Source of the DNA: Streptomyces longwoodensis
GTDB lineage: Bacteria; Actinomycetota; Actinomycetes; Streptomycetales; Streptomycetaceae
Assembly (NCBI RefSeq): GCF_001514125.1
Contig: NZ_KQ948549.1
Span: 1,024,193 to 1,088,192 of the forward strand
Length of the DNA: 64,000 bases
Reading direction: 5' to 3'
The position numbers and the translations under genes are program-made. The notes under the pieces were generated by a model. That model was not told where the DNA came from and made no database searches. It saw only the letters and a list, made by a program, of their open reading frames with translations. Below, in pieces: positions 27,603-47,983 of the stretch. Every line of letters begins with the position of its first letter. The stretch's first letter is position 1.

Positions 27603-27773
27603 GGTGGTGAGCCTCCGTCGTCAAGGGGCCGCCGTACTCGGGCGGCGGCCCGGAAACGGGAGGGACACCGCGGGGGATCGGTGCCCCTCCCTGACTCCAC
27701 CCTCCTCGCACGACCAGGCGCCGTGGCAGGCGCCGAAGGGCCCCACTCGCGTCCGTCCGGCCCGGGCCCGGCA

Positions 27774-27787
27774 GGGACCGTCGGCCC
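27774..27787. promoter_or_regulatory. DevR/OsdR-box-like palindrome upstream of adhE
   Basis: GGGACCGTCGGCCC fits GGGAC-N4-GGCCC, close to the DevR/DosR core GGGACT-N2-AGTCCC known from mycobacteria. It lies about 170 bp upstream of the adhE start. Related motif: GCGCCGAAGGGCCC at 27730-27743. Confidence 0.5.
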
Positions 27788-27861
27788 CCGGCCGGACCGA
27801 CCCGCCGTCGGCCCCCGGCCGGAGCGACCCGTCGTCGGCCCTCGGCCGGAGCGACCCACGG
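27781..27861. repeat. Three tandem 27-bp repeats in the adhE upstream region
   Basis: Units at 27781-27807, 27808-27834 and 27835-27861 each begin TCGGCCC and continue with GGCCGG and CGACCC, differing at only a few positions. They lie between the ppdK stop and the adhE promoter and overlap the DevR-like box at their left edge. The remainder of the gap (27603-27773) shows a dyad GGGACACCG / CGGTGCCCC near 27660-27690. Confidence 0.7.
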
Positions 27862-27879
27862 CCGGCCCCGCCCCGCGTC

Positions 27880-47197: not shown

Positions 47198-47275
47198 AAG
47201 ACCTGGAAGACGGGGAGGGGGTCGCGAGCCGGCCGACGGCTCACGGCCCGCTCCCCGACCCCGTGCCGTGATGCT

Positions 47276-47896
47276 TCACCGGTGGGTCAGTTCCAGCCGG
47301 ACGTCCACGACCCCCTCGACGGAGCGGACCGCGCGCGCGATCACGGGCTCGAGACCGCGCTCGGGAAGGGACCCGCCGAGGGTGACCGCCCCGTCGGTCA
47401 CCGACACCGTGAGGGCGTCACCGACGGGCAGCAGGCTCAGCACACCGTGACGGACCTCCTCGGCGATGTCCTCGTCGGAGCGCAGGAACACCTTCAGCAG
47501 GTCGCTGCGGCTGACCACGCCCTGCAGCAGGCCGACCCCGTCCACGACGGGCAGGCGCTTGACGTGCCGACGTGCCATGATGCGGGCCGCCTCGGCCACG
47601 GTGGCGTCCGCGTGCACGGTGACGGCCGGTGCGCTCATCAGCTCGCCCGCGGTCAGGGCGCTCGCCTTGACCCGCTCGGCGAGGCCGCCTTCGTCCGTGT
47701 CGCGGAACTCCTCCTTGGCGAGCAGGTCCGCCTCGGAGACCACGCCCACGACCCGGCCCTCTCCGGCCAGCACCGGCACGGCGCTGACCTTCCACTGGTC
47801 GAGCAGCTCCACGACGTCTTTGAAGGGCGCCTCGCTGCCCACGGCGACGACGGTGTGCGTCATCACGTCGCTCACCTTGTACAGGGTTTCAGGCAT
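47276..47896 (-). CDS. CBS-domain pair plus BON domain protein
   Basis: This 206-residue protein has two CBS repeats (VSDVMTHTVVAVGSEAPFKD ... VVGVVSEADLLAKEEF; ELMSAPAVTVHADATVAEAA ... GVVSRSDLLKVFLR) followed by a BON domain (DALTVSVTDGAVTLGGSLPE ... VEGVVDVRLELTH). CBS pairs bind adenine nucleotides and BON domains attach to membranes, so it could sense energy charge at the membrane. The mycobacterial DevR regulon contains CBS proteins of similar make-up. GGAGGT precedes ATG 47896. It is divergent from the USP at 48077. Confidence 0.92.
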   Translation of the reverse strand: MPETLYKVSDVMTHTVVAVGSEAPFKDVVELLDQWKVSAVPVLAGEGRVVGVVSEADLLAKEEFRDTDEGGLAERVKASALTAGELMSAPAVTVHADATVAEAARIMARRHVKRLPVVDGVGLLQGVVSRSDLLKVFLRSDEDIAEEVRHGVLSLLPVGDALTVSVTDGAVTLGGSLPERGLEPVIARAVRSVEGVVDVRLELTHR

Positions 47897-47956
47897 CACG
47901 ACCTCCCTCCGCTGTCCTCCACTGCCAGCGTGCGCTCCGGAAGGCGTGCAGGGCAG

Positions 47957-47983
47957 GGGCCCGAAGGTCCCTGGAAAGGGACC
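47957..47983. promoter_or_regulatory. DevR/OsdR-box-like motif and GGTCCC-N6-GGGACC dyad
   Basis: GGGCCCGAAGGTCCC (47957-47971; other strand GGGACCTTCGGGCCC) overlaps the dyad GGTCCC-TGGAAA-GGGACC (47966-47983). Both lie in the 180-bp divergent gap between the CBS/BON gene and the USP gene, about 95-120 bp before the USP start. This is the closest match in the window to a GGGAC-centred DevR-type site. Confidence 0.55.

Follow-up and report, generated by a model that had tools for sequence, protein, structure and literature searches.

Paired OsdR/DevR-type boxes predicted across a fermentation and stress gene island of Streptomyces longwoodensis

Streptomycetes are termed aerobes and yet are rich in genes of anaerobic metabolism, a situation described as the 'anaerobic paradox' (PMC5069765). 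The window analyzed here, a 64,000-nucleotide stretch of the Streptomyces longwoodensis genome, contains an island of predicted fermentation and stress genes with GC-rich palindromes in the intergenic DNA, and raises the question of whether these palindromes are binding boxes of a response regulator, by which regulator they would be read, and whether such words are simply to be expected in DNA of this composition. A sequence-only reading had likened the palindromes to the mycobacterial DevR box and suggested that the entire island is under one response regulator.

Genes were called with a custom script and annotated by Pfam domains. The metabolic part of the island comprises genes for an AdhE-like bifunctional aldehyde/alcohol dehydrogenase (24942..27602, minus strand), the pyruvate phosphate dikinase PpdK (27880..30576, minus strand), the pyruvate formate-lyase PflB (30858..33116, plus strand; CC at 416 and RVSGY at 724 in the sequence), a PflA-like radical SAM activase with a CxxxCxxC motif (33122..33874, plus strand), and a zinc-type alcohol dehydrogenase (33990..35060, plus strand). 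Two tandem-domain universal stress proteins (USPs) of 301 and 289 aa (41926..43770) and a 907-aa PatA-like protein that combines a GNAT domain with an NDP-forming acyl-CoA synthetase-like part (43893..46616) are encoded further along the plus strand. Two additional frames flank the promoter region between 39677 and 39894: a 262-aa gene (38889-39677, minus strand), divergent from a paired box promoter and without a Pfam match at 1e-5, and a 301-codon tandem-USP frame (39894-40799, plus strand), downstream of the same strong paired promoter, in which codon 85 (40146-40148) is the sole in-frame stop; gene decay, a sequencing error, or the presence of two ORFs would each account for it.

Between these blocks lie the genes of an OsdR-like response regulator (229 aa; 36340..37029, plus strand) and an OsdK-like histidine kinase (573 aa; 37121..38842, plus strand). 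The regulator has the make-up of the NarL subfamily, with a receiver domain (Response_reg, 5.1e-25) and a LuxR-type output domain (GerE, 1.5e-18), and its best match among solved structures is DevR (3c3w, E 3.5e-79). In the alignment with DevR, D54, the phospho-acceptor, and K182, a DNA contact (PMC3029386, PMC5999986), are conserved, along with neighboring helix residues. The kinase contains two GAF domains followed by HisKA_3 and HATPase_c, and GAF-A matches the DosT/DevS GAF structures with E values from 7.4e-49 to 1.5e-43 and includes the HHPPM motif. We take K179 and N183 to be further DNA contacts in DevR, and the histidine of HHPPM is presumably the haem ligand, as in DevS/DosT.

The OsdR box of S. 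coelicolor is the 16-bp sequence AGGGCCGATCGGCCCT, characterized by EMSA on wild-type and mutated boxes (PMC5069765). We built a symmetric scoring matrix from the 25 readable S. coelicolor site sequences in the table of that paper; the matrix being derived from published sites, the test is independent of the window's own sites. Dyads were present at all 11 positions listed in the sequence-only reading, every one of them between predicted genes, and the proposed DevR-like core held up, in that the palindromes are DevR/OsdR-type boxes agreeing with the published consensus (PMC5069765). The two formulas given for them, GGGAC-N4-GGCCC and GGGCCG-N2-CGGCCC, literally describe 8 of the 11, with the words at 30665, 41829, and 47957 deviating. 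Positions 39797 and 43794 indeed share one and the same word, which ends 83 and 85 bp, respectively, ahead of the predicted starts. Matrix scanning of the island located the published 16-bp box ahead of osdR and the neighboring stress genes. The palindromes are predicted to be OsdR/DevR-type binding boxes, a kind already known.

The boxes, with matrix scores in brackets, are distributed over eight promoter regions. Four boxes, at 27729 (9.4), 27749 (6.7), 27773 (13.7), and 27793 (5.1), form an array in steps of 20, 24, and 20 bp upstream of adhE (27729..27808), with the box at 27773 located 171 bp before the predicted start. The divergent ppdK/pflB promoter (30644..30771) contains boxes at 30644 (8.2), 30665 (11.4), 30690 (8.1), 30733 (11.6), and 30756 (4.0). 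Upstream of the zinc-type alcohol dehydrogenase gene (33881..33917), boxes at 33881 (8.7) and 33902 (15.0) are 21 bp apart, and the osdR promoter (36220..36255) has a near-perfect box at 36240 (21.7) and, at 36220, a weak neighbor (4.2). Distances of 20 bp separate the boxes at 39796 (15.1) and 39816 (8.7) between the 262-aa gene (minus strand) and the usp gene at 39894 (39796..39831), as well as those at 41828 (6.9) and 41848 (8.9) between a cNMP-binding gene (minus strand) and usp301 (41828..41863). In the patA-like promoter (43793..43829), the boxes at 43793 (18.4) and 43814 (4.5) are 21 bp apart, and in the divergent promoter of the CBS-BON and usp287 genes (47957..47993), the box at 47957 (11.4) is followed by a very weak one at 47978 (2.4), under the cut-off of 4. 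A single coding site in the island scores at least 11 (40843, 12.5), as does a single intergenic site of the window outside the island (58304, 11.2), which has no partner and was excluded from the set.

The regularity that emerges from this arrangement is the spacing: in seven of the eight box-bearing intergenic stretches, a second and often weaker box with a score of at least 4 occurs 20-23 bp away. A partner at this distance was found for 8 of 9 main boxes, whereas the eleven remaining four-base classes between 12 and 59 bp each gave 0-2 of 9. Elsewhere in the genome, within 20 regions surrounding the top word matches, none of 25 sites scoring at least 10 (18 coding, 7 intergenic) was paired (Fisher P 5e-7 against the island; P 0.0014 against the 7 intergenic sites only), and all 18 background intergenic boxes with scores of at least 9 likewise lacked a partner. 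The pair calls depend on the matrix, with partners of at least 4 for 3 of 9 main boxes when only the first 12 published sites were used and for all 9 when the last 13 were taken instead, and several partners are weak (4.0, 4.2, 4.5, and, in one case, just 2.4). The earlier site list had captured the main boxes correctly but overlooked this pairing, so that the boxes at 27729, 27749, 27793, 30644, 30690, 30756, 33881, 36220, and 43814, along with the very weak one at 47978, are additions to it. No statement on OsdR box spacing was found in the literature searched, and the terms 'tandem', 'spacing', 'two sites', and 'two binding' do not occur in the main text of PMC5069765; Table 1 of that paper places the SCO0517 boxes at -248 and -268, that is, 20 bp apart. 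Pair spacing is simple to compute and could be used to tell likely OsdR targets from palindromes arising by chance in DNA with 70% or more GC, a distinction that single-box matrix scans make poorly.

The same spacing recurs in other streptomycetes. A pflB gene of the window's type was identified in 108 of 295 genomes of the genus, a count that includes the window's own and a few partial matches, and 40 near-type and 20 distant-type pfl loci were chosen from all matches, with long contigs favored (gene calling yielded nothing for locus L100 and next to nothing for L095). Gene order near pflB varies widely among these relatives and the box-bearing gaps recur. Intergenic boxes with scores of at least 10 amounted to 1.51 per kb in the near-type loci, 0.26 per kb in the distant-type loci, and 0.105 per kb in the background of our genome, and such a box directly precedes pflB in 28 of 40 near-type compared with 3 of 20 distant-type loci; the 12 near-type exceptions are explained in part by pflB closely trailing another gene. 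Around the 170 boxes in the 40 near-type islands, 57 matches with scores of at least 6 lie at 20-23 bp, against about 4 expected, and none at 9-18 bp. Of these boxes, 166 are away from locus ends and 143 are non-redundant by context; after similar contexts were dropped, 65 partners of at least 4 were counted, against 5.4 expected, and 61 of the 143 boxes were paired. Perfect 5+5 palindromes were also counted in an unbiased way, and GGGCC-N4-GGCCC was the commonest in the relatives' island intergenic DNA (100 observed, 8.2 expected). Outside Streptomyces, in a small sample of nine scanned loci, 2 of 14 intergenic sites scoring at least 9 were paired, and 5 of 12 upstream regions of osdR from other genera contained a site of at least 10.

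In many of the loci with the distant pfl type (71-77% identity; L191-L210), pfl is followed by a conserved series of about five genes on the same strand; good OsdR boxes are mostly lacking, and in five of the loci a weak box-like word recurs roughly 134 bp upstream of pflB. In one of them (L206, genome G036), the distant-type pflB adjoins osdR and has boxes of 12 and 15 upstream, as if promoter style followed the neighborhood rather than the protein type.

Taken together, these observations lead us to a reading of the island to which we assign a probability of roughly 80%. For binding, phosphorylation, cooperativity, induction, and signal alike, we infer that phosphorylated OsdR binds the box pairs, likely cooperatively, and switches on the fermentation and stress genes of the island when low oxygen or nitric oxide is signaled by OsdK, the predicted haem-sensing kinase. 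By analogy with DevR, dimers of phosphorylated OsdR would sit at paired boxes on the same helix face, two turns apart. The predicted output would consist of pyruvate formate-lyase and its activase, AdhE, PPDK, alcohol dehydrogenase, the universal stress proteins, and the PatA-like protein. Given the near-perfect single strong box at its promoter, osdR would be autoactivated as well, and OsdR of S. coelicolor binds its own promoter (PMC5069765). In Mycobacterium tuberculosis, binding of intact phosphorylated DevR to primary and secondary boxes is cooperative, and full induction requires the two kinds of box together (PMC3029386, PMC7018068). The DevR/DosR regulon resembles the island in its GGGAC-type half-sites and in the close packing of primary and secondary boxes (PMC3029386, PMC7018068). 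The DevR-style arrangement of a primary and a secondary box, closely packed at a fixed distance, is evident here at the sequence level. The Rv3134c promoter of M. tuberculosis has two sites (PMC7018068), in contrast to the mostly single box of the osdR promoters in our set.

The claim that one response regulator controls the whole island is only partly borne out: the boxes are of the DevR/OsdR type, locally dense, and accompanied by an OsdR/OsdK-like pair within the island, but a single regulator is not established because the genome encodes a second osdR with its own kinase and its own near-perfect box. This paralogue, osdR2 (C1:974204), lies about 86 kb away, its product is 85% identical to that of the window osdR over 222 aa, with the recognition-helix stretch AEKTVKNHISRL common to both proteins, its upstream box scores 20.4, and its two-GAF kinase carries HHPPM. 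Accordingly, boxes of the OsdR type might be read mainly by osdR2 or by both copies, making the island part of a two-regulator network, a possibility that we regard as substantial although less probable than not. It gains weight from the features just listed and from a phylogenetic tree in which osdR2 groups with the pfl-neighboring osdR genes of three relatives (L151, L153, and L071), the placement of the window osdR not being resolved, and loses some from the position of the window osdR within the island, behind a near-perfect box of its own. A close OsdR is encoded, in at least one copy each, by 71 of 101 genomes of the genus, many of which have two or more. The osdR2/osdK pair lies beside an upstream globin-reductase (flavohaemoglobin-type) gene (L052:2869-6801; C1:972869-976801), and boxes precede both, that of the globin-reductase gene scoring 12.6; this neighborhood hints at a nitric-oxide branch.

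A different redox regulator, such as Rex, could govern the fermentation genes, with the palindromes being incidental. Anaerobic genes are under Rex control in other bacteria, and Rex has been studied in Streptomyces (PMC5355995, PMC2883068), but a Rex-like pattern (based on the S. aureus/Streptomyces consensus, its spacer set at 4 bases, so that a variant operator could escape it) had, at up to three mismatches, 6 matches in the window against 3.9 expected by chance, only one of them in the island, at 30550, inside ppdK. In the absence of excess matches in the window, a Rex operator was rejected as the alternative, and we consider this explanation very unlikely.

The comparison with chance relied on local density. 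The intergenic DNA of the island (27603-48076; 2162 bp) contains 8 sites scoring at least 11, or 3.70 per kb, against 5 in the 104.8 kb of intergenic DNA contained in 36 segments, each of 20 kb (720 kb in total), from this genome, or 0.048 per kb, which translates into an expectation of 0.11; 300 dinucleotide shuffles of the island produced a mean of 0.15 and a maximum of 2 such sites. The intergenic GC content is higher in the island than in the background (0.76 vs 0.71), and this difference is accounted for because the shuffles keep composition. Counts of simple words across the 8.36 Mb genome were rejected as proof of enrichment, the backward controls being higher: GGGACN4GGCCC had 90 matches (4 in the island) against 188, and the stricter palindrome 66 (6 in the island) against 98. 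Local clustering is over-represented; the words alone, genome-wide, are not. That GC-rich DNA, which often yields GGGCC..GGCCC palindromes and in the 720-kb background holds 47 intergenic and 81 coding sites with scores of at least 8, supplied the island boxes as a picked handful is the least probable explanation of all, given the density relative to both background and shuffles, the 20-23 bp spacing rule, and the recurrence of boxes among relatives despite reshuffled gene order.

Within the OsdR reading, the promoters of the regulator and of its putative targets appear to differ in style. Non-redundant osdR promoters had a box of at least 9 in 50 of 60 cases, with a median score of 18.4, and 6 of these 50 were paired; among nine other gene groups, 47 of 94 boxed promoters were paired and 47 were not (Fisher P 4e-6 against osdR, for a contrast noticed beforehand in data that overlap with those of the test, and in which some effector promoters count twice because divergent genes share them). 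The score of the main box did not predict pairing among the effector promoters (P 0.60). The window's own osdR box has its weak neighbor at 36220, while those of relatives are mostly single. We tentatively propose, as an idea with somewhat less than even odds, two architectures, one near-perfect box for osdR and two or more weaker boxes phased by two helix turns (20-23 bp) for effectors, which would combine self-amplification with a thresholded output set by box number and spacing; the same code would be read by at least two OsdR paralogues and travel with pfl, adhE, and ppdK as islands reshuffle across the genus. In the 50 aligned osdR promoters, A/T positions are conserved 31-35 bp past the box center, within an AAGATC-like word that is possibly a -10 element; no clear -10/-35 register was found when looked for in the effector promoters.

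The regulon is for the most part already known, because the corresponding S. lividans genes rise together with osdR: in strain TK24, ppdK, pfl, osdR, osdK, usp, alcohol dehydrogenase, PNPOx, and CBS genes as well as regulator genes are co-expressed with it (PMC6302529, Table 2), a group defined, as that study presents it, by correlation in a protein-producing strain and not by an osdR mutant. The OsdR (SCO0204) regulon of S. coelicolor, as reported, is similar in box consensus, regulator/kinase pair, the box at the regulator's own promoter, and clustering around osdR, and in having ppdK, usp genes, a zinc dehydrogenase, PNPOx, and a Crp-like gene as neighbors (PMC5069765). Novelty lies in the spacing rule, the contrast between single and paired boxes, the boxes of adhE and the patA-like gene, which are additional to those in Table 1 of PMC5069765, and the second OsdR. 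With pyruvate formate-lyase, its activase, and AdhE under predicted OsdR boxes, the island outlines a testable low-oxygen fermentation program. The activase gene of S. lividans TK24 is annotated as a pseudogene fragment (PMC6302529), whereas the pflA ORF in the window is intact.
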